Shown piece by piece: positions 15,686 to 41,426 of a DNA stretch of 64,000 bases (the first letter of the stretch is position 1; each line of letters opens with the position of its first letter). Position numbers and translations under genes: made by a program. A model generated the notes under the pieces. It searched no databases. It was given only the letters and a program-made list of their open reading frames with translations, and was not told the origin of the DNA. The DNA comes from Ensifer canadensis (GTDB lineage Bacteria > Pseudomonadota > Alphaproteobacteria > Rhizobiales > Rhizobiaceae): positions 62,001 through 126,000 of the forward strand of contig NZ_CP083372.1 of NCBI RefSeq assembly GCF_017488845.2, given 5' to 3'.

Positions 15686-15749
15686 GGCGCTGGCCTCCGA
15701 GGCAATCAGAAGGCCGCCGGCTTTGGCCGTCCGCTGCTCTACGGCGTCG

Positions 15750-19822: not shown

Positions 19823-20851
<1,029 letters not shown>

Positions 20852-22522: not shown

Positions 22523-23677
22523 TCAGGCCTTGGTCATAACGGCTCCCTCAATCTCGACGCCGCTCGTGGCATACTTCCACAAGGCGACGAGCAGTTTGCG
22601 CGCCAAGGCCACGATCGCAATCTTCTTGCCGCGCCCGCCGCTGTGGCTGACGCGTTCATGGAACCAGCGCGTCAGGGCCGAGTCCGGCTGATGGCGCAGC
22701 CAGAGCCAGGCCAGCTGGATCATCATCGTGCGCAGCCTCGGATTGCCTGCCTTCGAGACGCCTTGCTCGCGATCGATTGAGCCGCTTCGCCACGGCGAAG
22801 GTGCGAGCCCGGCATAGGCTGCGATCTGGCGTCGGTTGTCGAACTGGCGGAACAGCCCTTCGCAAGTCAGGATGTTTGCAATCTCCGCGCCAATGCCCTT
22901 GATGCCTTTGAGCATCGCCTGTGGCGCGGTACTATCCGCCGCGGCACACTGCGCATCGCGCTCGGCTTCGACGGCTTTGATCTGCTCGTTCACCAATTCG
23001 AGCCGATCGAGTTCACGACTGAGCTGCGCCGTCAGATGGGCAGGCAGCAGCCGGCCATCTCCCGTCCGCAATTCCTCCAAGCGTTCACGCCGGTCGCGAC
23101 GCGTCGGCTCATAACCTCGGACGCCAATGCTGAAGAGCAGGCCTTTGATCCGGTTGACGTGCCTTTTGCGCTCCTCGATCAGAGCTTTGCGCTCCCGGCC
23201 GATCCGACGCTGGTCCTCCTCTTCAAGCGTCGGCACACGCACCATCGAGCAGACCCGCGGTTCACCGCGCATCCACGCCATCAGCGTGCGAACCAGAGTC
23301 TCCCCATCGATGCGGTCGGTCTTCGCCCGGCGCTGCCGGCGCGACACCGCGACCGATGCGGCATCGACGACATGGCTCGTGATCCAGCCTTCCGCTTCGA
23401 GCGCGCGGTGTATCCAGAAACCATCGAGCCCCGCCTCCTGGATGACAACCACGGGGTAGAGCCTGCCCTCCCGCACCTGCGCCTTCTCGCGCAAGAGGTT
23501 CAAGCATGCCAGCAATGCAGGCAGGTCGCCGCCGGGTACCGAATGACGCGACATCTTCTCGCTGCCAGGCGATAGCGACGTCACCAGCCACGTCGACTTC
23601 GACAGTTCCAACGAGATGAAAATCGCGCCAAGATCAACTCGGATAGCGGCAAGTGGCGAGGCTGGTTCTGCTGTCAT
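22523..23677 (-). CDS. IS110/IS1111-type transposase, copy 1
   Basis: A 384-residue DEDD transposase. The N-terminal RuvC-like domain begins LAAIRVDLGAIFISLELSKS and contains RRQRRAKTDRIDGETLVR. The C-terminal Transposase_20 domain contains LKGIKGIGAEIANILTCEG, AAYAGLAPSPW and SKAGNPRLRTMMIQLAW. The start at 23677 follows GGAGGG. A longer ATG at 23743 has no ribosome-binding site and nears the element end. It is identical to the second copy. Confidence 0.93.
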   Translation of the reverse strand: MTAEPASPLAAIRVDLGAIFISLELSKSTWLVTSLSPGSEKMSRHSVPGGDLPALLACLNLLREKAQVREGRLYPVVVIQEAGLDGFWIHRALEAEGWITSHVVDAASVAVSRRQRRAKTDRIDGETLVRTLMAWMRGEPRVCSMVRVPTLEEEDQRRIGRERKALIEERKRHVNRIKGLLFSIGVRGYEPTRRDRRERLEELRTGDGRLLPAHLTAQLSRELDRLELVNEQIKAVEAERDAQCAAADSTAPQAMLKGIKGIGAEIANILTCEGLFRQFDNRRQIAAYAGLAPSPWRSGSIDREQGVSKAGNPRLRTMMIQLAWLWLRHQPDSALTRWFHERVSHSGGRGKKIAIVALARKLLVALWKYATSGVEIEGAVMTKA

Positions 23678-23755
23678 GGCAAGTCCCTCCAGAGTGGTTG
23701 GTAGCAAACCGACTCTGATCTCCCACAGGCCGCTGTCCACCACTCATCATGGGAT

Positions 23756-24447: not shown

Positions 24448-25920
24448 TCAAATACTGAGGCAAAGATACTTGGTTTCCACATAGTCATCGATGCCGTATT
24501 TGGAGCCTTCGCGGCCTTGCCCCGACTGCTTGACACCGCCGAAGGGAGCTACTTCCGTAGAGATCAGGCCTGTATTGATGCCCACCATGCCGTATTCTAG
24601 CGCTTCCGCCACGCGGAATACCTTACTCACATCCTTGGAGTAAAAATAGGATGCTAAGCCGAACTCGGTGTTGTTGGCCATACTGACAACTTCATTCTCG
24701 GTCTCGAACTTGAAGAGCGGCGCGACGGGACCGAACGTCTCCTCGCGAGCAATCTTCATGTCCATGGTGGCTCCGGTCAGGACGGTCGGCTCGAAAAACA
24801 AACCGCCCCGCGCATTGCCGCCCAGAACCAGATCGGCACCCTTCGTCACGGCGTCCCGGATATGTTCCTCGACCTTGGCGAGAGCCTTTTCCGAGATCAG
24901 CGGGCCAGCGTCGACGTCCGGCTCAAACCCGTCGCCGATCGTCATCTCGCTAACCTTGGCAGTCAGCCTCGCGGCAAAGGCGTCGTAAATTCCGGCCTGC
25001 ACGAAAAGCCTATTGGCGCAGACGCAGGTCTGCCCGTTGTTGCGGTACTTGGCGACCATGGCGCCTTCGACAGCGGCGTCGAGATCGGCGTCGTCAAAGA
25101 CGATGAACGGCGCGTTGCCTCCGAGTTCCAAGCCCAGCTTCATGATCTGGTCGGCGCCCTGGCGCATCAATATTTTGCCGACATTGGTGGAGCCGGTGAA
25201 GGTCAGCTTGCGAACCTTGTCATTGGCACACATTTCCTTGCCAACTTCCGCGGAATCGGTCGACAGGATAACGTTGAAGACTCCGGCAGGCAGGCCGGCG
25301 CGCTCTGCGAGCAAGGCTATCGCCAGTGCCGACAGCGGCGTCTCCGCGGCAGGCTTCGAAACCACTGCGCAGCCTGCGGCAGCGGCAGGCGCCAGTTTTC
25401 GGGCGAGCATCGCATTCGGAAAATTCCACGGCGTGATCGCCGCCACGACCCCGATCGGCTGTTTGAGGACGATGATGCGCTTGTCCGGCTGGTGGCCCGG
25501 AATCGTGTCGCCGTAGACACGCTTCGCCTCCTCGCCAAACCACTCGACGTAAGACGCGCCGTAGAGAATCTCGCCCTTCGCCTCCGTAAGCGGCTTACCC
25601 ATTTCCATCGTCAGGATGGTGGCGAGGTCTTCGGCATTGGCAATCACGAGGTCGTACAGGTTGCGCAGCACCGCGGCGCGTTCCTTGCCCGTCTTCTCCG
25701 CCCATGCCCTTTGCGCCGCGTGGGCCGCATCGATCGCACGTGCGGTTTCGGACCGACTCATGTCGGGCAAGATGGCGATGACCTCGCCGGTCGCCGGATT
25801 GCTGACATCGAACGTCTTGCCGCTGTCGCTTCTGTCAAGCCATTCGGCGCCGATCAAACCCTTATCGACAGCGAGGCTGGGATCCTTCAGTTTGACGAGC
25901 AGTGTTTCCGAAATCGTCAT
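24448..25920 (-). CDS. gabD: Succinate-semialdehyde dehydrogenase
   Basis: A 490-residue NAD(P)-dependent aldehyde dehydrogenase of the GabD type, oxidising succinate semialdehyde to succinate. The N-terminal substrate region has YVEWFGEEAKRVYGDTIP, the cofactor site ITPWNFPNAM, the general base Glu 265 in LELGGNAPF and the nucleophile Cys 299 in NNGQTCVCANR. The adjacent second cysteine is typical of redox-sensitive GabD enzymes. The start at 25920 follows GGAGACC; the upstream extension is antisense to the ABC gene end. It is the last gene of the catabolic operon, where it would convert the end-product of trigonelline ring cleavage (the TgnE role). Confidence 0.93.
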   Translation of the reverse strand: MTISETLLVKLKDPSLAVDKGLIGAEWLDRSDSGKTFDVSNPATGEVIAILPDMSRSETARAIDAAHAAQRAWAEKTGKERAAVLRNLYDLVIANAEDLATILTMEMGKPLTEAKGEILYGASYVEWFGEEAKRVYGDTIPGHQPDKRIIVLKQPIGVVAAITPWNFPNAMLARKLAPAAAAGCAVVSKPAAETPLSALAIALLAERAGLPAGVFNVILSTDSAEVGKEMCANDKVRKLTFTGSTNVGKILMRQGADQIMKLGLELGGNAPFIVFDDADLDAAVEGAMVAKYRNNGQTCVCANRLFVQAGIYDAFAARLTAKVSEMTIGDGFEPDVDAGPLISEKALAKVEEHIRDAVTKGADLVLGGNARGGLFFEPTVLTGATMDMKIAREETFGPVAPLFKFETENEVVSMANNTEFGLASYFYSKDVSKVFRVAEALEYGMVGINTGLISTEVAPFGGVKQSGQGREGSKYGIDDYVETKYLCLSI

Positions 25921-25999
25921 GCGTAGGTCTCCTGGTGCGTCGCCTTGTTTCCGGGCCGCTACTGTTCCATCGCCCGGCGTCCCACAAATAGCGGCTATT

Positions 26000-27079
26000 T
26001 CACTGACCGAAAACGTGCGCCGACCCGGCATCGAATCTGAGCCAAACGGCATCTCCCCGATTGAGTCCCGAGATCGCTTCATGACCGAAGGGAAGGCGGA
26101 CGGACAGGTCGTTGCCTTTGCGGGTTTTCGTGGCCACATGGACGTTGTTGCCGAGGAAGGTGATATCGCTGACCGTGACCGGCAACCCGATGTCTGACTT
26201 CGTCTTTGACAACAGTAGCCGCTCCGGCCTCAGCATAAGCGCCGCTTTGCTCCCCGAAGAAGCAGTCCCATGAAGCGGAATGTTCGAAATGGTCATGGAA
26301 CCGCACACAGCAATATCGGCTCGGCCATTGACCGTCGAGACCACGTCGCAAGGGAGAAAATCGCTGTCGCCGATAAACTCGGCCACGAACCGAGTGGCCG
26401 GGTTGGCGTATAGTTCCGGCCCTGTGCCGATCTGATCGATCACGCCCTTTGAGAAAACGGCAATGCGATCGGAAAGACGAAGTGCCTCCTCCTGGTCATG
26501 CGTGACATACAAGATTGTGACTTCCGTCTGCTGGTGGATCCGGCGGATTTCGTGCTGGATCTCCTCGCGCAGCTTTTTGTCGAGGGCAGAAAGCGGCTCA
26601 TCCATCAGCAGCACTGGCGGGTCATAGGCGAGTGCGCGGGCCAAGGCCACACGCTGCTGCTGGCCGCCGGACATCTGCGCGGGCTTACGGTCCTCAAAGC
26701 CTTCCAACCGGACGAGCTTCAGCATCGCGCGCACCTTGGCGTCGATCTCCGCCTTCCGAAGACGCCTGACCTTTAGCGGAAAGGCGATATTCTCGCCGAC
26801 GGAAAGATGCGGAAACAGCGTGTAGCGCTGGAACACCATGCCGATATTGCGTTTGTGCGAAGGCGTCGCCAGCAGCGTTTCGCCATTTAGCAAGATGTCC
26901 CCGCGCGTCGGGTTCTCAAAGCCGGCCAGGATGTAAAGCGTCGTGCTTTTTCCGGATCCCGAAGGGCCAAGAAAGGTCAGGAATTCCCCCTGTGCAACAT
27001 CGATAGTAACATCTTGCACGGCCGTCACCGGGCCATACTCCTTGCGGATGCCGCGAATCTGCAGGAAGGGTCTATTCAT
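26000..27079 (-). CDS. ABC transporter ATPase, PotA-like
   Basis: A 359-residue ATPase of the polyamine/opine/quaternary-amine importer group. Walker A is GPSGSGKST, the Q-loop MVFQRYTLFPH, the signature MSGGQQQRVALARAL, Walker B LLMDEPLSALD, and the H-loop YVTHDQEEA. A C-terminal TOBE domain (about 270-359) follows. Its start overlaps the stop of the upstream permease gene by 4 bp. With the neighbouring permeases and binding protein it forms one importer, probably for trigonelline given the enzymes in the operon (inference). Confidence 0.93.
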   Translation of the reverse strand: MNRPFLQIRGIRKEYGPVTAVQDVTIDVAQGEFLTFLGPSGSGKSTTLYILAGFENPTRGDILLNGETLLATPSHKRNIGMVFQRYTLFPHLSVGENIAFPLKVRRLRKAEIDAKVRAMLKLVRLEGFEDRKPAQMSGGQQQRVALARALAYDPPVLLMDEPLSALDKKLREEIQHEIRRIHQQTEVTILYVTHDQEEALRLSDRIAVFSKGVIDQIGTGPELYANPATRFVAEFIGDSDFLPCDVVSTVNGRADIAVCGSMTISNIPLHGTASSGSKAALMLRPERLLLSKTKSDIGLPVTVSDITFLGNNVHVATKTRKGNDLSVRLPFGHEAISGLNRGDAVWLRFDAGSAHVFGQ

Positions 27080-27876
27080 GATTTTAATCCTTTACGGACG
27101 ATGGCGACGAGCACCATCAAAAGTACTGTCAAGAGGATGAGAAGCGTGGAGGCGGCGGCAACGACCGGCGTTAAATCCTGGCGCAAGGTCGACCAAACCT
27201 TTACGGGAAGCGTCTGAAGCGTCGGGCTCGCCATGAAAATCGCGACGACCACTTCGTCCCAAGAGGTGAGGAAGGAAAATATTGCCGCTGAGAAGACGCC
27301 GTGGCTGATGGCCGGCAGCGTCACACGGATTTTGGCTTCGAAAGGCGAAGCGCCGCACAGAACGGCGGCATCCTCAATCGATTTATCAAAGCCCTCGAGC
27401 GCATTTGTGATCGACAAGATTGAGAACGGCAGTGCCAGCACCAGATGGGAAATGACGAAGCCGGTGAGGGTTCCATTGAGACCGATCTGCAGGAAGAAGG
27501 CGTATAGCGCCACGGCTAGCACGACGACGGGCAGGATCATCGGCGTCAGAAATAGCGCCTTCAACGCTTCCCGAAACAAGAACCGCCCGCGGTTCAGACC
27601 GAAAGAAGTGACTAGACCGAGAAGGACCGACAGCACCGTAACGATGATTGCGATGCGGAAGCTCGTCCAGGCGGAGTCCAGCCAACGGGGATCTTCGAGT
27701 AGCTCCTGGTACCACCTGAGCGTCCAACCGGGCGGCGGGAATATTAGCCATTGCGACGAACCGAAGGAGAGTGCCGCTATGAATAGGATGGGGAGGAGCA
27801 GGAAGGCAGTTGTCAGCAACGTGATGCCGATGAGAACGAGCTTCCACCAGCCCAGACGGTCGAAATTCAGGAGCAT
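27076..27876 (-). CDS. ABC transporter permease, PotC-like
   Basis: A 266-residue inner-membrane permease with about six hydrophobic segments, beginning WWKLVLIGITLLTTAFLLLP. The EAA loop that contacts the ATPase reads LEGFDKSIEDAAVLCGASP. The gene starts 1 bp after the stop of the partner permease and overlaps the ATPase gene. PotC-like second permease of the importer. Confidence 0.92.
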   Translation of the reverse strand: MLLNFDRLGWWKLVLIGITLLTTAFLLLPILFIAALSFGSSQWLIFPPPGWTLRWYQELLEDPRWLDSAWTSFRIAIIVTVLSVLLGLVTSFGLNRGRFLFREALKALFLTPMILPVVVLAVALYAFFLQIGLNGTLTGFVISHLVLALPFSILSITNALEGFDKSIEDAAVLCGASPFEAKIRVTLPAISHGVFSAAIFSFLTSWDEVVVAIFMASPTLQTLPVKVWSTLRQDLTPVVAAASTLLILLTVLLMVLVAIVRKGLKS

Positions 27877-27877
27877 G

Positions 27878-28753
27878 TCAGCGCCCTCCCATCCGGTTTG
27901 TGCCGAAGAAACGAAGCTGCACGGCGTACAGCGCTAGGGTGACGACCAGAAGCACCAGGGCCGCGGCGCCGCCCATGCCCCAGTTGACGAGAGACTGGAC
28001 GAACTGTGCGATGAGCTCCGCGAGCATCATGTTCGAAGTACCGCCGAGCAGCGCCGGCGTAACGAAGTAGCCGAGCGACATCACGAAGACCATAAGCGCA
28101 CCTGCCGCCATGCCCGGCATTGCGAGCGGCAGCAGCACGCGCACGAGCGACTGCCAGCGATTGGCGCCACAAAGAGCAGCCGCCTGCAGGATGGCAGGAT
28201 CGATCTTCCGGATGACGCCATAGAGCGGCAGGATGATGAAGGGCAACATGATGTAGGTCATGCCGATCGTCACTCCCGTCAGATTGTTGACGAGCGGAAG
28301 CGGCGTATCGATGAGCCCCATTCCAAGCAGCATCTTGTTGATGACACCTGTGCGCTGAAGCAACACCATCCACGCGTAAGTACGCGCAAGAAGGTTCGTC
28401 CACATGGATAGAAGCAGAATGGCGAACACAATGGATGCCGCGCGGCTAGGCATGATGGCCAGTGCCCAGGCGACAGGAAAGCCGATCAGCAACGATACAA
28501 GTGTGACGAGGCTAGAAACGATGAAGGTGTTTGCGAATATTCGCAGGTAGGTTGATGAGCCCAGCAATTCGGCATAGTTGCCGAGACCCGGCACCGGCTC
28601 TGTGACGCTACGCGTTAACAGCATGGCGACCGGCATGACGAAGAACAGGATCAGCAGCCCTAGGGCTGGCAATGTCAGGTCAAAGTCGGTCAGCCGCCGG
28701 ACCTGTGCAGGCGAATTCGGTCTCCCACTCCCGGTTTCGGTCTGCGATACCAT
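27878..28753 (-). CDS. ABC transporter permease, PotB-like
   Basis: A 291-residue permease with six hydrophobic segments. The first is LPALGLLILFFVMPVAMLL after a polar N terminus of about 30 residues. The EAA loop reads IRKIDPAILQAAALCGANR. Partner of the PotC-like permease directly downstream; 92 bp separate it from the binding-protein gene. Confidence 0.92.
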   Translation of the reverse strand: MVSQTETGSGRPNSPAQVRRLTDFDLTLPALGLLILFFVMPVAMLLTRSVTEPVPGLGNYAELLGSSTYLRIFANTFIVSSLVTLVSLLIGFPVAWALAIMPSRAASIVFAILLLSMWTNLLARTYAWMVLLQRTGVINKMLLGMGLIDTPLPLVNNLTGVTIGMTYIMLPFIILPLYGVIRKIDPAILQAAALCGANRWQSLVRVLLPLAMPGMAAGALMVFVMSLGYFVTPALLGGTSNMMLAELIAQFVQSLVNWGMGGAAALVLLVVTLALYAVQLRFFGTNRMGGR

Positions 28754-28845
28754 TGTTTCTCCTCCCTAAACGCAAGGCGCGCCGCTTTCCGGCTGCCGGA
28801 GCGACCGGAAGAACGCCACAACGTCCTTCCAGCCGTTCCCAATGA

Positions 28846-29856
28846 TTACTTCGCCTGCCAGGCGTACCAGCGCTCGCCGATGGCATCGCGATTCTCGGCC
28901 CAGTAGTTCATGTCCGCATTCACTTGGCTTGCCGTCTGCGCGTCCGGCAGGGTCTTTGCCAATTCCGGATCCATCATCTTAGGCGAATCCAGGTTGATCG
29001 GCGCGTATCCGGTGATCTTTGCAAGGTCGGCCTGAGCTTCTGGCGATGTGGCGAGCGCTATGAACTGCATCGCCGCTTCCTTGTTCTTCGAGCCCTTGGG
29101 GACTACGAGAGCGTCGGCGGCGGTGATGTTCTGTTCCCAGGAAGTCTCGACATTGATGCCGCTTTGCGCGAGCGCCGTCATGCGGCCGTTCCAGACGCTA
29201 CCGAAAGGCGCTTCGGCGGAGGCGAGGAGCTGTTGCGACTGCGCGCCGCCTGACCACCAGATGATGTCGGACTTAATCGTGTCGAGCTTCTTGAAAGCGC
29301 GATCCAGATCGAGCGGATAGAGTTTATCGGGCGATACACCGTCGGCAAGCAGGGCGGCCTCGATGACACCCGGCGCGGACCACTTGTAGAAGGCGCGCAT
29401 CCCTGGGAATTTCTGGGCGTCGAAGAGGTCCGCCCAGGTCTTAGGGCAGGCATCGACCGCATCCTTGTTGCAACCTATGACGAAGGAATAATAGAAGCTG
29501 CCAACCGAATAATCAGTGACGAAGCGCGGATCGAGCTTGGACTTGTCGATGATAGAGAAGTCGAGTTTCTCGAGGAGGTCCTTTTTGCCGGCCTGAGCGG
29601 CGTAATCGCCCTCGACGTCGACGACGTCCCAGGTGACGGCATTCGCCTCGACCATAGCCTTCAGCTTGCCGTAATCGGTCGGCCCGTCCTGCAGTACGTT
29701 AATGCCGGTCTTTTCGGTGAACTTATCGGCCCAGGCAGCCTTCTGGGCGTCCTGTGTCGTGCCGCCCCAGCTCGAAAAGACGAGATCGGCAGCCGTCGCC
29801 GGCATCGCTGTAGCAATCGTCGCGGCAGTGGCCGCCAAAACAAATATCCTATTCAT
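28846..29856 (-). CDS. Periplasmic substrate-binding protein, PotD/PotF-like
   Basis: A 336-residue periplasmic binding protein. Residues 1-22 (MNRIFVLAATAATIATAMP then ATA) are a Sec signal peptide with an AxA cleavage site, followed by DLVFSSWGGTTQDAQKAAW, the usual start of spermidine/putrescine-type family 1 binding proteins. The ligand-site aromatic stretch IIWWSGGAQSQQLLAS is present. The start at 29856 is preceded by AAGGGAAC. Family members bind polyamines and also other small cationic amines; here trigonelline or a related betaine is plausible but unproven. Confidence 0.92.
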   Translation of the reverse strand: MNRIFVLAATAATIATAMPATAADLVFSSWGGTTQDAQKAAWADKFTEKTGINVLQDGPTDYGKLKAMVEANAVTWDVVDVEGDYAAQAGKKDLLEKLDFSIIDKSKLDPRFVTDYSVGSFYYSFVIGCNKDAVDACPKTWADLFDAQKFPGMRAFYKWSAPGVIEAALLADGVSPDKLYPLDLDRAFKKLDTIKSDIIWWSGGAQSQQLLASAEAPFGSVWNGRMTALAQSGINVETSWEQNITAADALVVPKGSKNKEAAMQFIALATSPEAQADLAKITGYAPINLDSPKMMDPELAKTLPDAQTASQVNADMNYWAENRDAIGERWYAWQAK

Positions 29857-29893
29857 GTTCCCTTGCTCCGTGTTCCGGTTTTGCTTGGTTGTT

Positions 29894-30229
29894 CTAAGAC
29901 GCGACGGCACCTGTCGGCGAAAATCGTGCCGCCCTCATGATCTTATTTTCAGCGACTTCTATCAGGTCGCGTATTTTGGGAAGAAAATCCCGCCAGGCCG
30001 CATCGTTCATGAGTGCGGCTCGCCGACGCTCGCGCTCATCGAGGCTCGGATAAGCCCAGATATGGACGATCTCGTTGATCGGCCCGATTTCGGAGAAGAA
30101 GTAGCCGACAAGTTCGCCGAGATGCTTCCTCTGGATGGCTATCCCTTCTTCCTCGACCACCTTCAGGTAGGTAGGGATCGCGCCATTCCTCAGCCGATAG
30201 GTGCGGATCTCGTAAAACATCGCTCTCAC
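29894..30229 (-). CDS. NIPSNAP-family protein
   Basis: An 111-residue NIPSNAP-domain protein (ferredoxin-like dimeric alpha/beta fold): FYEIRTYRLRNGAIPTYLKV, then GPINEIVHIWAYPSLDERE and MNDAAWRDFLPKIRDLI. NIPSNAP proteins often accompany catabolic operons without a known reaction. It overlaps the end of the aldehyde dehydrogenase gene. The true start may be the ATG at 30220 (MFYEIRTYRL). In the described trigonelline pathway a conserved hypothetical protein assists the last step; this or the AA_synth protein could play such a part. Confidence 0.85.
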   Translation of the reverse strand: MRAMFYEIRTYRLRNGAIPTYLKVVEEEGIAIQRKHLGELVGYFFSEIGPINEIVHIWAYPSLDERERRRAALMNDAAWRDFLPKIRDLIEVAENKIMRAARFSPTGAVAS

Positions 30230-31689
30230 CGCATCACGAAGGGATCAGGAATTGGATCGTCCGACGTCCTGAGCCAAACGGTCTTGCTCCGGGTATAGTC
30301 GAGCGCCGCCTCCAGGCCGCCCTCACGCCCGTGACCCGAGAGCCCGAAGCCGCCGAAGGGCGCGACCGGGGAGACCGCCCGATAGGTATTGACCCAGACG
30401 ATTCCCGCGCGAATTCCCTTCATGAGGCGGTGCGCTCGGGTGAGATTCTGCGTAAAGACCCCGGCTGCAAGGCCGAAGCGGGAGCCGTTGGCGAGATGGA
30501 GAGCTTCAGCTTCTGTCTCGAAAGACAGAACCGAGAGCACAGGACCGAAGAATTCGTTCTCGAGGGACGGCGATGCGCTGCCGTCGCAATCGAGAATGGT
30601 CGGGCGATAATAGAACCCGGTGCCCTCCGGCGCTGTGCCTCCGGTCACCAGCTTCGCGCCAGCAGCCAGCGAGCGTGCGATAAGGGCCTTGACGTGGTTG
30701 CACTGGCGCTCCGTCGCGAGCGGTCCCACCTCCGTCGACATCTCGAGCGGGCTGCCGATGCGAATTGTCTCTGCCTTGGCCTTTAGGATCTGCAAGAAGC
30801 GGTCCTTGACACTTTTTTCGACGATCAGCCGTGAGCCGGCCACGCAGCTCTGCCCGGTCGCGGCAAAGATCCCGGCGATCTGGGCATTGGCCGCACTTTC
30901 AAGATCTGCGTCGGCAAAGACGATAAAGGGCGATTTGCCGCCGAGCTCGAGCGAGGTCGAGGCGAGATTTTCCGCTGAATTGCGGACTATATGGCGCGCC
31001 GTCTCCGGCCCGCCAGTGAAGGCTATGTGATCGACCTGCGGATGGCGGCTGAGCGCCGCGCCGCATGATGGGCCGAAGCCGGTGACGATGTTGACGACAC
31101 CGGCGGGAAAACCCGCCGCATGCACCAGCCGGGCAAATTCGAGAAGCGGCGCCGGCCCGTCCTCCGAGGCCTTCACCACCATGGTGCAGCCGGCCGCCAG
31201 TGCCGGACCGATCTTTACGGCCGAAAGGAAAAGCTGGCTGTTCCACGGCACGACCATGGCCACGACGCCGATCGGCTCGCGGCGCAGCCAGACATCCATG
31301 TCGGGCTTGTCGATCGGCAGATAGGAGCCCTCAATCTTGTCGGCGATCCCGGCGTAGTAGCGATAGTAGTCGGCGACATAGGCGATCTGCGACGAGGTCT
31401 CGCGGATGATCTTGCCCGTGTCGCGGGTCTCCAGCTCGGCAAGTCTTCCGGCATTCTCAGCGACGAGATCGGCAAGCTTGTAGAGGAGCTTGCCTCTCTG
31501 CGTGGCCGTCAGTGTGGACCATGACTGGTCGTGAAGGGCGATACGTGCAGCCTCGACGGCACGATTGACGTCCGCTTCCCGTGCCTCTGGCATCTCTGCC
31601 CAGGCACGGCCGGTGGTGGGATCGATGCTTTCGAAGCGGGCTTCGCCGTCTGCGAATTCACCGTTGATGTAACACTGGAAGCGCTGCAT
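30226..31689 (-). CDS. tgnC: Aldehyde dehydrogenase (TgnC-like)
   Basis: A 487-residue aldehyde dehydrogenase. Cofactor motif VVPWNSQLFLSAVK, glutamate in STSLELGGKSPF (about residue 248), nucleophile in AATGQSCVAGSR (Cys 282), C-terminal APFGGFGLSGHGREGG. It differs clearly from the GabD protein of the same operon, so two aldehydes are handled. In the trigonelline pathway the second step oxidises the ring-cleavage hydroxybutyrolactone to N-methylformamidomethylene-succinate by an aldehyde-dehydrogenase-family enzyme, TgnC; its place right after the monooxygenase fits. Substrate is inferred from the neighbours. Confidence 0.85.
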   Translation of the reverse strand: MQRFQCYINGEFADGEARFESIDPTTGRAWAEMPEAREADVNRAVEAARIALHDQSWSTLTATQRGKLLYKLADLVAENAGRLAELETRDTGKIIRETSSQIAYVADYYRYYAGIADKIEGSYLPIDKPDMDVWLRREPIGVVAMVVPWNSQLFLSAVKIGPALAAGCTMVVKASEDGPAPLLEFARLVHAAGFPAGVVNIVTGFGPSCGAALSRHPQVDHIAFTGGPETARHIVRNSAENLASTSLELGGKSPFIVFADADLESAANAQIAGIFAATGQSCVAGSRLIVEKSVKDRFLQILKAKAETIRIGSPLEMSTEVGPLATERQCNHVKALIARSLAAGAKLVTGGTAPEGTGFYYRPTILDCDGSASPSLENEFFGPVLSVLSFETEAEALHLANGSRFGLAAGVFTQNLTRAHRLMKGIRAGIVWVNTYRAVSPVAPFGGFGLSGHGREGGLEAALDYTRSKTVWLRTSDDPIPDPFVMR

Positions 31690-31694
31690 GTGCC

Positions 31695-32735
31695 CTACTC
31701 CGCAAATGCTGGCATGACATCGGCGATGAAGCGTTCGAGCGAAGCCTTCTTGCGCTCGAAGGTCATGCCTGTGTCTATCCAGAAGGAATATTCGTCATAT
31801 CCCATTGCCTCGTAGCTCTTGATGCGGGCGATGACCTCGTCGGCTGCGCCGACGACGTTGTTGCGTCGCATTGCCTCGCCTGAGAGCATGGCATTGGCGG
31901 CAATTTCCTCGTCCGGAATCCGATCAATGAGGCCTTGTCTGATCGGTCTTTCGTTCTTGAACCAGGCGAAGAAGTAATTGTAGTATACGCTCATCTCATG
32001 AGCTGCCTGCGCGATATCCGCCTCGTCGGAGCCGACATAGGTGTGCCGCAGCAGCATGATCTTCGGGCGCGGGACCTCTGGATCCTTGGCGCAGGCGTCG
32101 TTGAACCGTCCCATCAGGCTCCGAACCTCCTCGTCGTCCTGCCAGAGTGGCGTCACCTGCACATTGCAGCCGTTCGAAACGGCAAACTCGTGCGAGTTGG
32201 GGTCGCGCGCAGCAACCCATATCGGCGGATGGGGCTTCTGCAGCGGCTTCGGTGACGAGGTCGTGGCCGGAAACTTGAAGAACTCGCCGTCGTGGGCGTA
32301 ATCACCCGCCCAGATCCCCTTCACCGCCGGAATGAGTTCGCGCATGCGCTGCCCAGCGCTCCAGGCGTCGAGGCCCGGCAGCAGCCGCTCGTACTCGAAG
32401 GAATAGGCGCCGCGGGCAATTCCGATGTCGAGGCGACCCTCGCAGATCAGATCCGTCATTGCGGCTTCTCCCGCGAGCTTGATCGGATGCCAGAAGGGCG
32501 CGATCACCGTGCCGGTTCCAAGCCGCACGGTCTTAGTGCGGCGGGCAAGGTCGGCAATCGTTATGAAGGGATTCGGCGCAATGGTGAACTCCATTCCATG
32601 ATGTTCACCGGTCCAGATCGCGTGCATGCCGCCTTTGTCGGCGACTTCGCACAGCTTGATGAATTCTTCGTAAAGCGTCCTGTGGTCTTGCGAAGCATCC
32701 AGGCGCTCCATGTGAACGAAGAGTGAGAATTTCAT
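31695..32735 (-). CDS. LLM-class flavin-dependent monooxygenase, oxygenase component (trigonelline ring cleavage, probable)
   Basis: A 346-residue bacterial-luciferase-like monooxygenase using reduced FMN. It starts MKFSLFVHMERLDASQDH, with WTGEHHGMEFTIAPNPF and TVRLGTGTVIAPFWHPIKL typical of the family barrel, and an FMN-pocket RLDIGIARGAYSFEYERL. The start at 32735 overlaps the stop of the flavin reductase gene (ATGA), so oxygenase and reductase are made together as a two-component system. By operon content it is the probable enzyme that opens the N-methylpyridinium ring of trigonelline. The exact substrate cannot be read from sequence. Confidence 0.88.
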   Translation of the reverse strand: MKFSLFVHMERLDASQDHRTLYEEFIKLCEVADKGGMHAIWTGEHHGMEFTIAPNPFITIADLARRTKTVRLGTGTVIAPFWHPIKLAGEAAMTDLICEGRLDIGIARGAYSFEYERLLPGLDAWSAGQRMRELIPAVKGIWAGDYAHDGEFFKFPATTSSPKPLQKPHPPIWVAARDPNSHEFAVSNGCNVQVTPLWQDDEEVRSLMGRFNDACAKDPEVPRPKIMLLRHTYVGSDEADIAQAAHEMSVYYNYFFAWFKNERPIRQGLIDRIPDEEIAANAMLSGEAMRRNNVVGAADEVIARIKSYEAMGYDEYSFWIDTGMTFERKKASLERFIADVMPAFAE

Positions 32736-33667
32736 GAGTGTACGTCCTTCTTCGCGATCGGATGGACCGTGCCGCCGGTCTCGTCGCCGAAATACATGCC
32801 GAAATTGCCGATAGAGCTTTCGAGTACGAAACGATTGATGATATCGGCGGTCGCACTGCTGCTGAACTTGGCCGCAGCGAGCTCCGCCGGCCTGAGAAAC
32901 CGGCCTTGTCGTGGTGCACCGTCGCTGGCAAGCGCGTGGTAAACGATGTTTTGACGACCATCGCTCTTGTCCTCGTAAACCGAGTAGAGAAATCCGATGG
33001 TGACGTTCAGCCCGGTCAGTTGTTCGAGATAGGCGGCGAGCGTGCGCGCAGGATCGCCGCCTTCGACGGTGCAATTCGGAAGCGACAGGGTTTCATTGCC
33101 TGCCAGAAATACCGCGCCCTGCTGTTCGAGCACCGCACCGAGACGAATTTCTCCCTCAACGGCAGCGGAAACCGCCTTTCCTGCCAACCTCGGCGTGAAG
33201 TAGCCGCCCCGGGCGTAACCCAGGCCATTGAGGCCGCTGTTTTCGAAGGCGGTAACGCGACCGATTATGATGACATGATCGCCCGCCTCGATGATGTCCT
33301 GCATCGAACACTCGAACCAGGCCGCCACATCTGAGAATATCGGGCAGCCGTCCCGGCCAAGCCGCCAATCGACCGTTGCAAACCGATCCTCCACGGGGCG
33401 GGCAAATGTATTCGAGACGTCTTTTTGCGTTTCGGACAAGACGTTGATGGCGAAACGCCCTGCCGAAGTCATCGAATCATAATTGCGCGAGCTCTTGGCA
33501 AGGCAAACGAGCAGCAGCGGCGGATCCAATGAGACAGAGGTAAAGGAATTGGCCGTAAAGCCGATTGGCTTGCCTGCCGCATCGCTCGCCGTCACCACCG
33601 TCACTCCGGTTGCAAATGCGCCGAACGCGTCTCGCAAGGCTCTCGGGTCGAAAACTTCCGCAGTCAT
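32732..33667 (-). CDS. Flavin reductase component with C-terminal Nudix-like domain
   Basis: A 311-residue protein. Residues 1-165 are a flavin-reductase-like FMN-binding domain (DAFGAFATGVTVVTASDA, PIGFTANSFTSVSLDPPL, FECSMQDIIEAGDHVIIIG). Residues about 175-311 form a second domain resembling Nudix/NrtR-type regions, absent from simple reductases. It supplies reduced flavin to the monooxygenase encoded downstream. Start and stop overlap its neighbours by 4 bp each. A paralogue with a shorter tail is found at 47236-47916. Confidence 0.88.
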   Translation of the reverse strand: MTAEVFDPRALRDAFGAFATGVTVVTASDAAGKPIGFTANSFTSVSLDPPLLLVCLAKSSRNYDSMTSAGRFAINVLSETQKDVSNTFARPVEDRFATVDWRLGRDGCPIFSDVAAWFECSMQDIIEAGDHVIIIGRVTAFENSGLNGLGYARGGYFTPRLAGKAVSAAVEGEIRLGAVLEQQGAVFLAGNETLSLPNCTVEGGDPARTLAAYLEQLTGLNVTIGFLYSVYEDKSDGRQNIVYHALASDGAPRQGRFLRPAELAAAKFSSSATADIINRFVLESSIGNFGMYFGDETGGTVHPIAKKDVHS

Positions 33668-34509
33668 CTCGGTTTCTCCCTGGAAGTCAGCCATTCGGAC
33701 ATCAACGCGTTGACGATCTCGGGGGCGGTTAGATTGACCATATGTCTGTGACCATCGACAATGCGTGCCCATCCCTTTGGCGTCACAGACGCCATCTGTT
33801 TGGCCATTTCCGGTGTCGAATTCGGATCTCCCGAGCCCGTTAGGAAGAGAGCCGGGCATTCGACGGACGGCCAGCAGTCTGCATAGATCTCATCGCCCCC
33901 CGCAAAGGCGGCATAGGCAATCGCGTATCCTTCCGGATCGACCATCTCCAACCATGTTCGTGTTAGCTCTCGAGCACGTTGGCTCTCCGGATCCTCGCCG
34001 AACCACCGCTCCAAAGGCCCTTCCGCGTCGACCCCGTTTTCACGGATAGCTTCAGCGCGCGCCAGGACTGCAGCTTTCGCCGCGGCGTCGCGGCGATAAA
34101 CGCCGTTGAGGTAAGCGACACGAGTGATCCGGTCGGAAAAAGTTGCCACCGCGCCTCCGGAAATAAGTGCACCCATCGAATGTCCGGCGATACTCGCCCG
34201 TGCGATGCTCAGGTCTTCCAGGAAGCAGCCAAACCAAGCAACGTAGTCCCGCAACGTGCTGCCCGCTGGGATTTTTTCGCTTGCGCCATGCCCCGGCATG
34301 TCTAATGCGAAAACCCGGTGGGTTTTTGCGAAAGCCTCGATTTGGGGCGCCCAAGCCTCGAGGCGCATGCCGACGCCGTGAATGAGGATTAACGTCTCTC
34401 CATCGCCGGCTTCGAAGTAGGCGGTGCCGCGCGCAGTGGTCTTGCGCGGAAGGGAGGCGCCGCCCTCCCCGGATGTGTGTGATGTAACCGTTTGCATCGA
34501 GGTGTCCAC
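33664..34509 (-). CDS. tgnD: Alpha/beta hydrolase (TgnD-like)
   Basis: A 281-residue alpha/beta-hydrolase. Oxyanion motif ILIHGVGMRLEAW, nucleophile elbow IAGHSMGALISGG (Ser 111), acid region FLTGSGDPNSTPEM and catalytic histidine in VDGHRHMVNLTAPE. The start may be 34509 or the ATG at 34497 (MQTV). In the trigonelline pathway the third enzyme hydrolyses the N-methylformamido intermediate to methylamine, formate, CO2 and succinate semialdehyde; this is the only hydrolase in the operon and so the candidate. It overlaps the reductase gene. Confidence 0.85.
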   Translation of the reverse strand: MDTSMQTVTSHTSGEGGASLPRKTTARGTAYFEAGDGETLILIHGVGMRLEAWAPQIEAFAKTHRVFALDMPGHGASEKIPAGSTLRDYVAWFGCFLEDLSIARASIAGHSMGALISGGAVATFSDRITRVAYLNGVYRRDAAAKAAVLARAEAIRENGVDAEGPLERWFGEDPESQRARELTRTWLEMVDPEGYAIAYAAFAGGDEIYADCWPSVECPALFLTGSGDPNSTPEMAKQMASVTPKGWARIVDGHRHMVNLTAPEIVNALMSEWLTSREKPR

Positions 34510-34515
34510 CGCCGC

Positions 34516-35118
34516 TCAGACACCGGCCGGATTGGTGACATCTTGCCCAAGCTCCTTCAAATCCTCGTAACGGTCGCCGATCCGGTGATGAGGACGTCCG
34601 CCAGTCGAGGCGCCAAGAGCCACCACGATTTCATCGGCGGCTGGGGCATCGGGTACTGCGGTCTGGATTGTCAGGTAGTGCGAACGGCGCCCCTCGTCGT
34701 TCTTGTCCATCAGGGGGATCATGATGGGGGCATTGGCAGGGCCGCGCGTATTGCAGAAGGCCAGGTATGATTTGGCGCCAACCGCTTGGCGATAATGATT
34801 GCCGAAACGCAAGGTATGGATGAGCGCCGAGGCATGCTCGATTTCGCCATCGATCCCGACCACGGCGGCTTTCCCATAAGCTTCAACCGCCTCGGCGGAG
34901 CCAACGGCATCGATAATCATCCTAGTTAAAAGCTCGCCCAGTACCGGTGCCGCTCTGTGAATCTCCGGCCTCAGATCCTCGACGAAGCCGTGCCCAGCCC
35001 ACGGATTTTTCAACACCGCCACCGCCGAAAACAGCTTTAACGGCTGAGGGGCGGCTTTCCCGCCCTCGATTAGGGTCGTTTCCATCTGGAGCAGCGTCTT
35101 GCGGATCTGAACGGGCAT
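34516..35118 (-). CDS. AA_synth family protein (DUF1185)
   Basis: A 200-residue protein of the so-called amino acid synthesis family, whose reaction is not established. Recognisable by VRKTLLQ-like start (IRKTLLQMETTLIEGGK), AVLKNPWAGHGFVEDL and HTLRFGNHYRQAVGA. It is the first gene of the operon, 6 bp before the hydrolase gene. The start at 35118 follows AAGGATG and the GntR-type operator at 35150. Family members repeatedly sit beside LLM monooxygenases in N-heterocycle catabolic clusters. Confidence 0.85.
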   Translation of the reverse strand: MPVQIRKTLLQMETTLIEGGKAAPQPLKLFSAVAVLKNPWAGHGFVEDLRPEIHRAAPVLGELLTRMIIDAVGSAEAVEAYGKAAVVGIDGEIEHASALIHTLRFGNHYRQAVGAKSYLAFCNTRGPANAPIMIPLMDKNDEGRRSHYLTIQTAVPDAPAADEIVVALGASTGGRPHHRIGDRYEDLKELGQDVTNPAGV

Positions 35119-35149
35119 AGGACATCCTTCCTGTGAGCTATTGGTCTTA

Positions 35150-35159
35150 TGGTATGCCA
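35150..35159. promoter_or_regulatory. GntR/FadR-type operator of the catabolic operon
   Basis: TGGTATGCCA, of the form bound by FCD-type GntR regulators (T-G-G-T-N-N-R-C-C-A), 32 bp upstream of the first operon gene. Closely related sites lie at 36349 (upstream of the gntR gene) and 48101. Confidence 0.7.
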
Positions 35160-35580
35160 TCATATAACACAGTCAAGTGGCTCTTCAACGCAAAGCCCGA
35201 ATTCCGGCCAAGTGCCCGATTTTGGTAGGAAAAAATTTGCGATTGAGGGCGAACGCAAACCGAGCGCGTTGATCGCGGTCGGTTTTTTGCAGCGGAATGC
35301 GGGGGATGCGCATCGTGCGCAAACCCGAGCACGTCAGCAGCGGCCACGTTAAGCGGCGATTCTGAGGCGTTCAGGGATGGTGTTCAGGCGGCGGCACAAC
35401 CCGAAGGATGTTCCATCGAGCAATGACCGCCACATCATGCTGCACAAACGCTTTGGATTACCCAACGACTGCAATCAGAAGAAAGGAGGCGCCAGTTGGC
35501 TCATGGCCAACGAGCAGATCTGAGAGCCAGTCTGAGGTGGGTAGAGTCAGCCTTCGTCGCCGATCATAGTCGTAACCTCG
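35160..35580. other. Intergenic, no gene recognised
   Basis: Between the operon operator and the end of the gntR gene nothing coding is supportable. The first about 60 bp, next to the operator, are similar to the sequence following the operator at 48101, so promoter DNA was duplicated along with it. Confidence 0.5.
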
Positions 35581-36276
35581 TCAGTCGCCCGTCTGCTGCG
35601 CTGAGAGTACGGCCTCCGCGATGACGGAAGCTCTGGCGACATGATCAAGGGCAGCCGTGTAAGCCGCTTCGCCGTCGCCTTTTCGGATGGCCTCAACGAT
35701 CCTTTCCATCTGTGCCGGTCCTTCGACGTCTCGATTTCTAGTCTTGATCGTCATGGAACGAAGATGGTTGATCCGGACGGTCAGCAGGCTGACGACGCCC
35801 CAGGCAACGTGGCGATCGACCTTGGTAAAAAGCGTCTGGTAGAATGCGGAAGTGTGATTGAGAACCGCGGGCATATCCTTAGCAGCATAGCTCTGGCGGA
35901 TGCCTTCCAAGGACGCTTCAAGGGCTGCAACAACGGTCGAGTCGTTTCGCTCCGCACAAAGTCGGGCGGCCATCCCTTCGAGGGCGCCGCGAATTTCGTA
36001 GATCTGCTTCGCTTCATTCAGATCTAGACGCGCGACGATCGGCCCTTTGTTAGGCAAGTTCGCGACGAGGCCCTCGGATTCGAGGTGCCGCAGCACCTCA
36101 CGGACGATTGTACGACTGACACCGAGTCGCGCACACAGATCGCGCTCGACAAGGCGATCACCCGGTCTGAAATAACCGTCGACAATAGCGTCCCGCACCT
36201 TGTCGAGCGCCAGTTCCCTCAATGTTTTTGTCGGACGCTCTACCCGAATGGCATTCCCTGCCAGTGCATCGTTCAT
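35581..36276 (-). CDS. GntR-family (FCD) transcriptional regulator of the catabolic operon
   Basis: A 231-residue regulator. The N-terminal winged helix contains LRELALDKVRDAIVDGYF and RLGVSRTIVREVLRHLESE. The C-terminal FCD effector domain carries YEIRGALEGMAARLC, a histidine in NHTSAFYQTLF and the final HVARASV. FCD regulators respond to small carboxylates. The start at 36276 follows AGGTGAG; an ATG 27 bp upstream lacks one. An operator-like TGGCGTACCA about 70 bp upstream suggests autoregulation, with the operon operator 420 bp downstream. Confidence 0.9.
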   Translation of the reverse strand: MNDALAGNAIRVERPTKTLRELALDKVRDAIVDGYFRPGDRLVERDLCARLGVSRTIVREVLRHLESEGLVANLPNKGPIVARLDLNEAKQIYEIRGALEGMAARLCAERNDSTVVAALEASLEGIRQSYAAKDMPAVLNHTSAFYQTLFTKVDRHVAWGVVSLLTVRINHLRSMTIKTRNRDVEGPAQMERIVEAIRKGDGEAAYTAALDHVARASVIAEAVLSAQQTGD

Positions 36277-37386: not shown

Positions 37387-39048
37387 TCAATGGGACGCGT
37401 CAAAGTCATGCATCGGCATTATAGCAACGTGGTCTGGGTCGGTAATGGGTGCGTACAATGCTGAATCGTCAGATTTACCCTGCATAGATCCTACTACGGT
37501 CGGGGCGACCTCTGATACATTGCCACGGAACAGAGAAGCGTTTAACCACTGAACCGAGTGTAGCCTATAGTCCGTACCCGTCGCCACGCCGGGCTTTCTG
37601 ACAGCGTAAAGAGCGGAATAATTGTCGACGTAATCCCTCGGAGACATAGTCTCGACATTTCTACCCGCAGAAATACGTGAGCCGTGGTCGCCATGAACGA
37701 CTATCGTAGCGTCCTGAAATCTCTTATCGCTAAGAACCGCATTAAAGAACTTATCTAGTTGCTTGGCAAGACACAGCGTTTGAGCGAAGTAGAATCCATA
37801 TTCTTTCACCCGCGCTTCATCTAGCTCTTGACCTGCCAACCCGCGGACTTCTGTAAGATATGACCTCTCAACCCAACGGTTCGTTGGTTTGCAATCTTTG
37901 TTGTAGACCGAGGGACTATGCGGAAATAGAAAATGAGCAAAAAAGGCGTTTCCACGACCTTTATCTAGAATCATGTTCTGGAACTGTCCGAGCCAGTAAG
38001 GGAAGGCTAGTTGGTCGTAAGACCGCGGGTGCCATTCTTGTAGTGCCGTGTCCTTCGTCTCCAGCAAGTTGGAGGCCACGAAGCCAACGGCTGCCATTGC
38101 AAGGCTTTGCCTGTTTCCCTCGATCAGCGCTTTAACATCCGCCAGCGAAGCGGAAGCGGGTGGAACGTCCCGGTATGGGCCGCCCTCGATCCGCTGCCGT
38201 TGAATAAATCTACTTCCGTCAAATGATGCGAAGGTGTGACAGTCGACTAGCGCTTCAGTTTTGCAGTAATCAAGATGAGCAGACTGGAAGACATTGACGG
38301 ATAACCCTTGTCGACGCCACAGATTGAATAACGACAGTTCCTTGAACTTTGTTACCTCCCCCGGGTAGGCATAATGCGATCTATCGCCGGGAAAATTATA
38401 AGAATAGTCCATGTTCAAGGCGGCTGGTACTGAAACCTGAGTCAGAATGTGGCGACTGAAAGCCTTGGAATGGAGCCGGAACCCATGTTTCTGGAAAACC
38501 CGCGACAATGCGGCTTTGGCTTCTGCTCCATGGGGTAATCTTGTGTCAATCCCGGAAATGCCGATCATTTCATCAGTCACGATATAAATCAAGGCCGGCG
38601 CGGATTCTTCGGCGCTCGCCTCAGTAATCAAGCCGCGATCAAGAACTGTAGAGCCCAGTAGGGCTACGGCAAATGCGGCCATCATACGGGGCACAGCGGC
38701 CATGAGCTTGAATAGGACCAGAATAAGTACAACCAGTCCAGCGAACGCCAACGCGGCGGCGCCCCCCATTCCTATGTGGTCTGCTAGTCTCCAGAAAACA
38801 CCGTATGAAAGATCGCCAAAAAGGAAAAGGGTAACGGCGAGTGTGCCTGCTGTTACGACGTTGCCAACAGCTCCCCTTTTATAGCAAAAGGTTGCAATCA
38901 TGCCCAGGGCGAGTCCAATTATGGCCACAAAAGCGATGACGGCGTACCCTGCATCGCTTCTGGGGTCAATATACACTCCCTGAAACGCGTCAATGATCGG
39001 GCTAAGCAAGATTACCAGAGGTGATAGCAGTAAGACGATTCGCTTCAT
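37387..39048 (-). CDS. noeB: NoeB, host-specific nodulation protein, membrane sulfatase-like
   Basis: A 553-residue protein. About residues 1-140 contain several transmembrane segments. The rest is an alkaline-phosphatase-superfamily (sulfatase-like) domain with [17 protein letters not shown] near the metal site, [15 protein letters not shown], and [14 protein letters not shown]. It is the last gene of the nod-box operon, 6 bp after noeA. In S. meliloti nodL, noeA and noeB form one operon behind nod box n5, needed for nodulating particular Medicago species; the molecular role of NoeB is unknown. The domain suggests transfer or hydrolysis of a phospho- or sulfo-group outside the membrane (inference). 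Confidence 0.82.
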
Positions 39049-40874: not shown

Positions 40875-41426
40875 TCAGCCCCTTGCCCGAGCTGGGCTTC
40901 CCATTACTTTTGCGCCCGCAGGGACGTCGCGCGTGACTACGCTTCCCGCGCCAACGACCGCATGATCGCCAATGGTCACGCCCGGGAGGATGATCGCGCC
41001 ACCGCCAATCCATACGTGCTTGCCAATGAGGACAGGTCGCCCGAGCTGCAGCCCCGCCTGCCGCTGCTCGGGGTCATCCGGATGATCGGCGGTATAGATC
41101 TGCACAGCAGGCCCAATGGCGGTCCCATCGCCGATCGTCACCTTTGCCACGTCGAGGATGACGCAGTTGAAGTTCATATAGGCGTGGGCTCCGATACTGA
41201 TGTTGAAGCCGTAATCGCAGTGAAAGGGCGGACGGATAATCGCTCCAGGCCCAACCTCGCCTAGCCGTTCGCGGAGGAACAAATGCCACTGCTCGGCGGA
41301 ATCGCCCAAAGTACTATTGTAGCGCTTCAGCCAAGCCCCAGCGGCCAGCAGGTCGGCTTGGATTTCTGGATCCGCTGCGTTGTACATCTCGCCTGCGAGC
41401 ATCTTCTCTTTTTGAGTGCGTGTCAT
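40875..41426 (-). CDS. nodL: NodL, Nod-factor O-acetyltransferase
   Basis: A 183-residue left-handed beta-helix acetyltransferase of the LacA/NodL type, which acetylates O-6 of the non-reducing terminal sugar of Nod factors. It starts MTRTQKEKMLAGEMYNAAD, followed by hexapeptide repeats (VTIGDGTAIGPAVQIY, IGKHVWIGGGAIILPGVTI). The active-site histidine is in YTADHPDDPEQR. The start follows GAGGAG. It is the first gene behind the nod box at 41574-41621, 150 bp upstream. Intact. Confidence 0.93.
   Translation of the reverse strand: MTRTQKEKMLAGEMYNAADPEIQADLLAAGAWLKRYNSTLGDSAEQWHLFLRERLGEVGPGAIIRPPFHCDYGFNISIGAHAYMNFNCVILDVAKVTIGDGTAIGPAVQIYTADHPDDPEQRQAGLQLGRPVLIGKHVWIGGGAIILPGVTIGDHAVVGAGSVVTRDVPAGAKVMGSPARARG

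Follow-up and report, generated by a model that had tools for sequence, protein, structure and literature searches.

What compound is handled by an operon that combines a luciferase-like monooxygenase, two dehydrogenases and a binding-protein-dependent importer, and that lies between the nif and nod genes of a rhizobium? The question is raised by a stretch of 64,000 nucleotides from Ensifer canadensis (contig NZ_CP083372.1, positions 62,001 to 126,000), hereafter the window, in which positions 24448-36276 hold 11 tightly packed genes and a GntR regulator gene, all open frames on the minus strand. A first-pass annotation made from the letters alone had proposed a complete catabolic operon for trigonelline (N-methylnicotinate), a legume metabolite whose use by the symbiont the operon would serve. 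Our analysis points the same way: the operon very likely imports and degrades trigonelline, and is the rhizobial form of the tgn cluster of Acinetobacter, a member of a known pathway. The evidence assembled here consists of homology, gene order and operator conservation, from which we infer the chemistry in this species.

Gene content of the operon

The twelve frames are as follows.

35581-36276, minus strand: GntR/FCD regulator (Pfam PF00392 and PF07729), orthologue of SMa0789 by family and position
34516-35118, minus strand: AA_synth protein (Pfam PF06684), TgnF homologue, 73% identical to that of A. baylyi DSM 14961
33664-34497, minus strand: alpha/beta hydrolase (Pfam), TgnD-type, 51% to A. 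baylyi
32732-33667, minus strand: flavin reductase (Pfam), TgnA, 40% to A. baylyi and 41% to tgnA of Acinetobacter sp. PK01
31695-32735, minus strand: luciferase-like monooxygenase (LLM) dependent on reduced flavin mononucleotide (FMNH2), TgnB, 72-73% to Acinetobacter tgnB
30226-31689, minus strand: aldehyde dehydrogenase (ALDH), TgnC, 71-72% to Acinetobacter tgnC
29894-30220, minus strand: NIPSNAP protein (PF07978), optional accessory gene
28846-29856, minus strand: periplasmic binding protein of the Atu4243/GtsA/Pf622 gamma-aminobutyrate (GABA)-binding type, 85% to PDB 4eq7
27878-28753, minus strand: ATP-binding cassette (ABC) importer permease 1, by synteny with Atu4243-type, pRL10 and Burkholderia loci
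27076-27876, minus strand: ABC importer permease 2, by the same synteny
26000-27079, minus strand: ABC importer ATPase (PF00005 and PF08402)
24448-25920, minus strand: GabD-type succinate-semialdehyde dehydrogenase (SSADH), TgnE, above the TIGR01780 cut-off, 57% to A. baylyi

Pfam families were confirmed for all 10 proteins scanned (the two permeases were left out of the scan), in agreement with the gene content of the first-pass annotation. Gaps among the 11 structural genes range from 4-base overlaps up to 92 bases, a spacing so tight that a single transcript is plausible. The GntR gene lies 462 bases from the next operon gene across a stretch with a putative operator, and may therefore be transcribed as its own unit.

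Comparison with Acinetobacter tgn clusters

A tblastn search of plasmid records with the window LLM returned 324 records at E 1e-40 or better, and among the 60 of these that were listed the sole gene-named record was that of Acinetobacter sp. PK01, in which the match (72% identity) is annotated tgnB. The PK01 plasmid cluster is annotated as GntR, amino acid synthesis family protein, alpha/beta hydrolase, tgnA, tgnB and tgnC, with an NAD-dependent SSADH further on. A scan of named genomes with PK01 TgnB gave at least 559 confirmed places, of which the best 80 were kept, so that the counts over 80 loci given below describe the loci closest to Acinetobacter TgnB. They include the cluster of A. 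baylyi DSM 14961, where homologues of GntR, TgnF, TgnD, TgnA, TgnB, TgnC and TgnE stand in the same order as in the window. Identity to these proteins is 73% for both the LLM (TgnB) and AA_synth, 71% for the ALDH (TgnC), 57% for the SSADH (TgnE), 51% for the hydrolase (TgnD), 44% for GntR and 40% for the reductase (TgnA); the proposal that every known activity of the pathway is encoded is thus borne out by TgnA-F homologues of 40-73% identity.

Component by component, a two-component flavin-dependent monooxygenase of the TgnA/TgnB kind is represented by the LLM (72-73%) and the adjacent reductase (40-41%), and the window TgnC homologue shares 71-72% identity with PK01 tgnC and with the corresponding A. 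baylyi protein. The SSADH scores 696 bits against TIGR01780 (cut-off 646), and TgnF is likewise present; the hydrolase occupies the position of TgnD, an assignment made by elimination and from the known course of the pathway. The window LLM scores 517-526 bits with Acinetobacter TgnB (517 for PK01 tgnB) and only 121 bits with the best solved luciferase-like enzyme. A closer relationship to an enzyme of different proven substrate, which would have spoken against the trigonelline assignment, was thus not seen among solved luciferase-like enzymes, a comparison that leaves pyridine monooxygenases without a solved structure outside it. In a tree of 31 LLMs the window protein clusters with those of S. 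meliloti, genome G302 and pRL10 (support 100/99); the tree has 9 open forks and a midpoint root on a very long branch, and is therefore used for close placement only.

Gene presence was also counted across the 80 loci. A separate count scored presence anywhere in the locus and included cross-hits for SSADH and ATPase; a recount limited to the LLM's own cluster found the ALDH in 80, AA_synth in 79, the hydrolase in 78 and the reductase in 74 of the 80, with AA_synth directly before the hydrolase gene in 77. The lone locus without AA_synth (L088) is truncated by a contig end. The window differs from A. baylyi in having an ABC importer where the latter has an NCS1 permease, in its NIPSNAP gene, in a GntR gene that is not divergent, and in having no counterpart of a 388-amino-acid gene (L021:14318-15484). 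Some points weigh against the assignment: the reductase is just 40% identical and goes undetected in the LLM's cluster of 6 of the 80 loci, the names tgnA-C on the PK01 plasmid are automatic annotation, and the A. baylyi comparison was made with the type strain DSM 14961 and not with strain ADP1.

Several variations on the cluster were observed in passing. The A. baylyi 388-amino-acid gene lies between the NCS1 permease and SSADH genes, has no Pfam match at E 1e-6, and has similar genes in 19 of the 80 loci. On the PK01 plasmid (L010 4453-11407), purU, folD and sarcosine-oxidase genes adjoin the tgn cluster, neighbours that fit formate and methylamine as pathway products. Hydrolase (TgnD) and flavin reductase (TgnA) share a single open frame in five loci (L012 at 10205-12004, L011, L074, L083 and L086), the L012 frame being annotated as one protein. 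In four Caballeronia loci (L051, L052, L055 and L056) a pair of Tgn-type clusters stands back to back, and the LLM of the second is 60% identical to that of the window; Arthrobacter dokdonellae (L015 6353-10001) has two tandem AA_synth genes and a tautomerase gene directly before the LLM.

Proposed pathway and Sinorhizobium meliloti genetics

The pathway steps follow Acinetobacter work, reportedly that of Perchat et al. in 2018 on the tgn cluster of A. baylyi. By analogy, the ABC importer would take up the betaine trigonelline, its presumed ligand, and the TgnA flavin reductase would feed reduced flavin to the monooxygenase TgnB, which would open the pyridinium ring to an N-formyl-N-methyl enamide aldehyde, closing to a hydroxybutyrolactone; hydroxybutyrolactone is named in the PK01 tgnC annotation. 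TgnC would oxidise the aldehyde from ring opening, the TgnD alpha/beta hydrolase would hydrolyse the enamide of the product, releasing methylamine, formate and CO2 besides succinate semialdehyde, which the GabD-type TgnE would convert to succinate, with TgnF (AA_synth) assisting the late steps. A GntR repressor, presumably bound near TTATGGTATACCATAA, would keep the operon off in the absence of substrate.

A trigonelline catabolism locus, trc, was reportedly described on the pSym plasmid of S. meliloti in 1991 papers (Boivin; Goldmann), and the first-pass annotation had pointed to trc genes on this symbiotic plasmid. The pSymA plasmid of S. meliloti 1021 carries all twelve genes uninterrupted at 98-99.6% identity. 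It matches a 12.4 kb stretch of the locus in two pieces that together span about 5.9 kb more than the query, and since the twelve genes run uninterrupted the extra DNA lies outside the operon. Only a single place on pSymA is similar to the window LLM at E 1e-5, and S. meliloti wild type is reported to grow on 10 mM trigonelline as sole carbon source while a strain lacking pSymA does not (PMC4207669). On these two grounds the operon is very probably the trc locus, which was itself defined genetically. Trigonelline has also been detected in Medicago nodules (PMC12489286) and is reported to activate NodD2 (PMC11771551).

The importer and its GABA-type binding protein

The nearest solved relative of the window binding protein is PDB 4eq7/4euo (612 bits, 85% identity), deposited as a polyamine-binding protein and presumably Atu4243 of Agrobacterium. 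A search of 297 Rhizobiaceae genomes with 4eq7 found matches at E 1e-60 in 51, with 38 hits of at least 67% identity and 17 others at 38-41%. A search confined to the genus to which the best hit belongs covered 39 genomes and gave a match at E 1e-100 in 16. Combining 37 of the 38 closer hits (the window left out) with 15 of the 16 genus hits (one being already included) gave 52 Rhizobiaceae loci, in all of which the binding protein occurs together with AA_synth, hydrolase, reductase, LLM and ALDH. The binding protein of genome G302 is 100% identical to 4eq7 and is surrounded by a full Tgn-type operon; its GntR gene (L177:1533-2225, 82% to the window GntR) lies, unlike that of the window, about 4 kb upstream of AA_synth, which fits the numbering Atu4232 to Atu4243. 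A phylum-wide sample gave the same picture: the binding protein was found at E 1e-90 in 9 of 398 genomes, each time beside Tgn-like genes. Four of the nine are operons already seen (the window, L154, L175/L264 and L237), and the other five have AA_synth, hydrolase, ALDH, reductase, GntR and an LLM of 49-72% identity within 20 kb.

The transporter slot is itself variable. It is filled by the NCS1 family in A. baylyi and Xanthomonas, by the BCCT betaine family in Pseudovibrio and by the ABC system elsewhere; among the best 80 loci, 35 have NCS1 alone, 16 ABC alone, 15 both, 5 BCCT and 9 none in the flank. The constant company of Tgn genes and the exchange of the ABC system for NCS1 or BCCT transporters suggest that it is trigonelline that is imported, with unrelated importers serving what looks like one substrate.

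A first alternative is that this is a GABA uptake operon, gts, and that its enzymes act on some compound other than trigonelline, larger than GABA or succinate semialdehyde and degraded to one of them. Atu4243, to which the window protein is 85% identical, is reported to bind GABA and is described as highly specific (PMC3907764). The GABA-contact positions given for the sensor iGABASnFR2 are W9, T13, F100, residue 102, W202, R205, D228 and Y264 (PMC12999171), and these eight positions are invariant in 85 of 85 aligned binding proteins, residue 102 being Tyr as in that improved sensor, although the 85 include duplicates and close relatives, are not independent, and may owe part of the pocket's invariance to this. 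Two solved relatives further off, 4i1d (no ligand given) and 6hly, which binds agropine, depart from this pattern at W9 and T13 when aligned. Near-identical relatives of the sensor domain occur in the same setting. PDB 6dgv, the Pf622 domain of iGABASnFR (PMC12999171), was compared over two stretches with the binding proteins of L288 and L289, two of the last five loci of the phylum-wide sample, and these are 99-100% and 96% identical to it. These Pf622-like proteins are encoded inside Tgn-like clusters whose LLMs are 49-50% identical to that of the window, and residue 102 is Phe in four loci of this kind (f30, presumably Pseudomonas relatives).

The gts operon itself is recognizable as the same locus. 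The pRL10 operon of Rhizobium johnstonii 3841 has an identical order over 12 genes and 63-88% identity to the window. Locus tags have been published for its AA_synth (pRL100242) and LLM (pRL100245) genes (PMC7105596) and for an ABC transporter of POPT class (pRL100248; PMC3333776). Since gene order and locus tags agree, the cluster pRL100242-252 is the same operon as that of the window. We take this cluster to be the gts "GABA transport" operon, for which White et al. in 2009 reportedly measured transport of GABA. They are also reported to have seen aromatic amino-carboxylates inhibit this uptake and to have proposed an unnamed substrate of greater complexity, which speaks against a plain GABA operon, as do the 71-73% identity of LLM and ALDH to TgnB and TgnC, the lack of an aminotransferase among the 10 Pfam-scanned proteins, and the association of the same enzymes with an NCS1 permease in A. 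baylyi. Overall we regard a GABA operon as very improbable. Trigonelline may instead be the family's real ligand, or may share the pocket with GABA; judging by the contact residues, the aromatic cage with its Arg and Asp could accommodate both.

Alternative substrates of the enzymes and the importer

A second possibility, which we consider very improbable, is that the ring opened by the enzymes is not that of trigonelline but that of a related N-heterocycle (nicotinate, N-methylpyridinium, homarine or another pyridine betaine). Similar clusters do exist with LLMs of 42-52% identity (L014, L015 and L286-L289), which points either to several substrates for this set of genes or to deep divergence within it, and one such cluster is present in the window genome itself at C4:506201-514256 (L261). 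The window LLM is, however, just 43% identical to that of this other cluster and 72-73% to tgnB, and the growth phenotype attributed to pSymA concerns trigonelline (PMC4207669). The L261 locus comprises AA_synth, LLM, ALDH and flavin reductase genes, resembles R. etli p42f (L014), and shows no match to the operator within the 130 bases that precede AA_synth.

That the ABC genes form a putrescine importer beside unrelated enzymes, as suggested by a study that names SMa0799-803 potABCD2, assigns them to the uptake of putrescine and counts them with the transport systems that transposon sequencing (TnSeq) marks as essential in symbiosis (PMC7268258), is hardly credible given 80.0 bits against a PotD model cut-off of 582, at most 99.1 bits with putrescine- or spermidine-named chains compared with 612 for 4eq7 (itself deposited as 'Polyamine'), and the company of Tgn-type enzymes in 52 of 52 loci. 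SMa0799-803 is taken as the importer discussed here because of gene order and because SMa0789 is a GntR gene (PMC11387232, PMC5539429). The label "putrescine uptake" for these genes is doubtful. A PotABCD polyamine importer is thus rejected; of the PotABCD-like importer in the first-pass annotation, the ABC type and a loose likeness remain, and the nearest solved relative is instead a GABA-binding protein. These alternatives are not fully exclusive of trigonelline degradation, since importer ligand and enzyme substrate may differ.

Regulation and the stc3 genes

Four sets of features bear on the regulation of the trigonelline operon.

35147-35162, no strand: palindrome TGATGGCATACCATAA, resembling an operator and placed 28 bases ahead of the start codon of tgnF
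48099-48112, no strand: exact repeat of the core of this operator-like site, lying 182 bases ahead of the gene for a TgnA-like reductase (stc3-type)
47236-47916, minus strand: flavin reductase of 226 amino acids that shares 69% identity with the TgnA homologue of the operon and whose gene has relatives annotated stc3
L272 21610-21623 and 25911-25924, L273 15949-15962 and 20231-20244, L274 9896-9909, L275 10500-10513: operator-like cores at shortened TgnA-like reductases, some of them annotated stc3

A palindrome near TTATGGTATACCATAA (at most 3 mismatches) was found in 142 of 158 regions upstream of tgnF, compared with 1 of 158 shuffles and 0 of 158 inside the gene, the regions being non-independent as some genes are counted twice and many are close relatives. 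The 16 regions without a site include those of the diverged loci L014, L015, L258 and L261, as well as L037, L170, L171, L231 and L233. Perfect copies precede tgnF in Rhizobiaceae as well as in a pair of Acinetobacter loci other than that of A. baylyi, namely PK01 and A. pittii. The conserved palindrome is likely the GntR operator, and the regulator probably represses the operon. The Atu4232 product is reported to repress atu4243 (PMC3907764), and transposon insertions in SMa0789 to reduce competitiveness under the plant peptide NCR247 (PMC5539429).

In the window genome, TATGGYATRCCATA with at most 1 mismatch occurs in three places: at the operon, at 48099-48112 of the window and once on contig 4. 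Genes like that of the 226-amino-acid reductase are annotated as stc3, stachydrine N-demethylase or flavin reductase. Both stc3-type copies on pSymA of strain 1021 have an operator-like site upstream within the matched DNA, and in L273 (two copies, which flank nodD2), L274 and L275 the site lies 181-182 bases upstream. As an operator-like site precedes these genes, stc3 too may be under the control of the trigonelline repressor or of one of its paralogues. The site seems to be the sole feature common to the operon and the stc genes, and no Rieske-type demethylase was detected among the 10 Pfam-scanned operon proteins. A frame of 56 amino acids upstream of the stc3-like gene was considered as a relic of the hydrolase gene and rejected (profile search E = 0.15, -2.5 bits).

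The AA_synth and NIPSNAP proteins

The first-pass annotation had listed AA_synth as a conserved protein of unknown function and asked what it does, a question already answered in part, at second hand. The A. baylyi homologue has been named TgnF and is reported, citing a 2018 paper, to stimulate TgnE-dependent succinate-semialdehyde oxidation (PMC7913881). The same source describes HcdD of the Pseudomonas mandelii 7-hydroxycoumarin pathway, a homologue of TgnF for which no comparable effect could be shown; it resembles the window protein in being a BCM-like PF06684 protein beside a ring-degrading pathway, and differs in the pathway concerned (PMC7913881). Solved relatives of AA_synth are PDB 2qtp and 3byq.

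The family occurs in 34 of 249 sampled genomes with 49 matches, from which 43 neighbourhoods were drawn (4 tandem copies lie inside them, and the window and one match of 29.9 bits were excluded). An LLM match lies within 8 kb of AA_synth in 15 of the 43. This association is particular to TgnF-type copies (272 bits or more), 12 of 13 of which have an LLM within 8 kb, the thirteenth (G385) being about 18 kb from its LLM, whereas only 3 of 30 other copies (148 bits or less) do so, with weak matches of 38-43 bits. AA_synth as a generic partner of luciferase-like enzymes was therefore rejected, and 14 scanned proteins from 5 loci revealed no common theme among neighbours of the non-TgnF copies. Between the window and A. 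baylyi, AA_synth is as well conserved as the LLM and ALDH and better than the hydrolase and reductase, an argument for a catalytic or structural role under constraint. As a guess, both pathway aldehydes (the TgnB product and succinate semialdehyde) close to 5-hydroxybutyrolactones, which TgnF may open for the dehydrogenases. The NIPSNAP gene is optional, being present in 34 of the 52 Rhizobiaceae loci and 7 of the 80 loci closest to Acinetobacter TgnB.

Genomic surroundings

The operon is on a symbiotic plasmid. The genes nifE, nifK, nifD and nifH lie on one flank at 14258-20761, followed by an IS110 transposase at 22523-23743. Frames on the other flank (37387-39048, 39055-40485 and 40875-41426) correspond in order and length to noeB, noeA and nodL in the annotation of S. 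meliloti ml47, those of noeA and nodL being matched also in S. medicae ml29, which places the operon between nif and nod genes as had been claimed. The 12.4 kb stretch matches 327 plasmid records, the best 40 of them over its full length at 97.9-99.9% identity; among these 40, S. medicae records are at 99.8-99.9% and S. meliloti or S. kummerowiae at 97.9-98.1%. An integrase-like frame (judged by eye) and then an IS91 transposase were seen at 48585-50631, where the gene order is unlike that of S. medicae ml29 (L096).

Implications for the symbiont and the binding protein family

The trigonelline pathway itself is already known, and the value of the present comparison is in joining separately named systems and in a prediction on the GABA-type binding protein. 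One common gene set would connect the trc phenotype of 1991 with gts, Atu4243, potABCD2 and the tgn enzymes; among the open-licence papers listed, none was found that links trigonelline genes to SMa07xx tags, to gts or to Atu4243, which is not proof of absence. We tentatively suggest, as a possibility somewhat short of an even chance, that Atu4243, GtsA and Pf622 evolved as trigonelline or pyridinium-betaine receptors of Tgn-type operons for which GABA is a look-alike ligand, that rhizobial and agrobacterial GABA transport is partly a side activity, that iGABASnFR may respond to trigonelline, and that a common repressor site connects the stc3 genes on either side of nodD2 with the trigonelline operon. 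Against this stand the reported high GABA specificity of Atu4243 (PMC3907764) and the LLMs of the four f30 loci, which are only 49-52% identical, so that trigonelline is not established as the substrate there. The suggestion predicts a testable cross-reactivity of the GABA sensor iGABASnFR with trigonelline, and it would have the symbiosis-essential 'putrescine' importer re-read as a probable trigonelline importer. Most likely, then, this plasmid operon lets a nitrogen-fixing symbiont of alfalfa consume the plant compound trigonelline.

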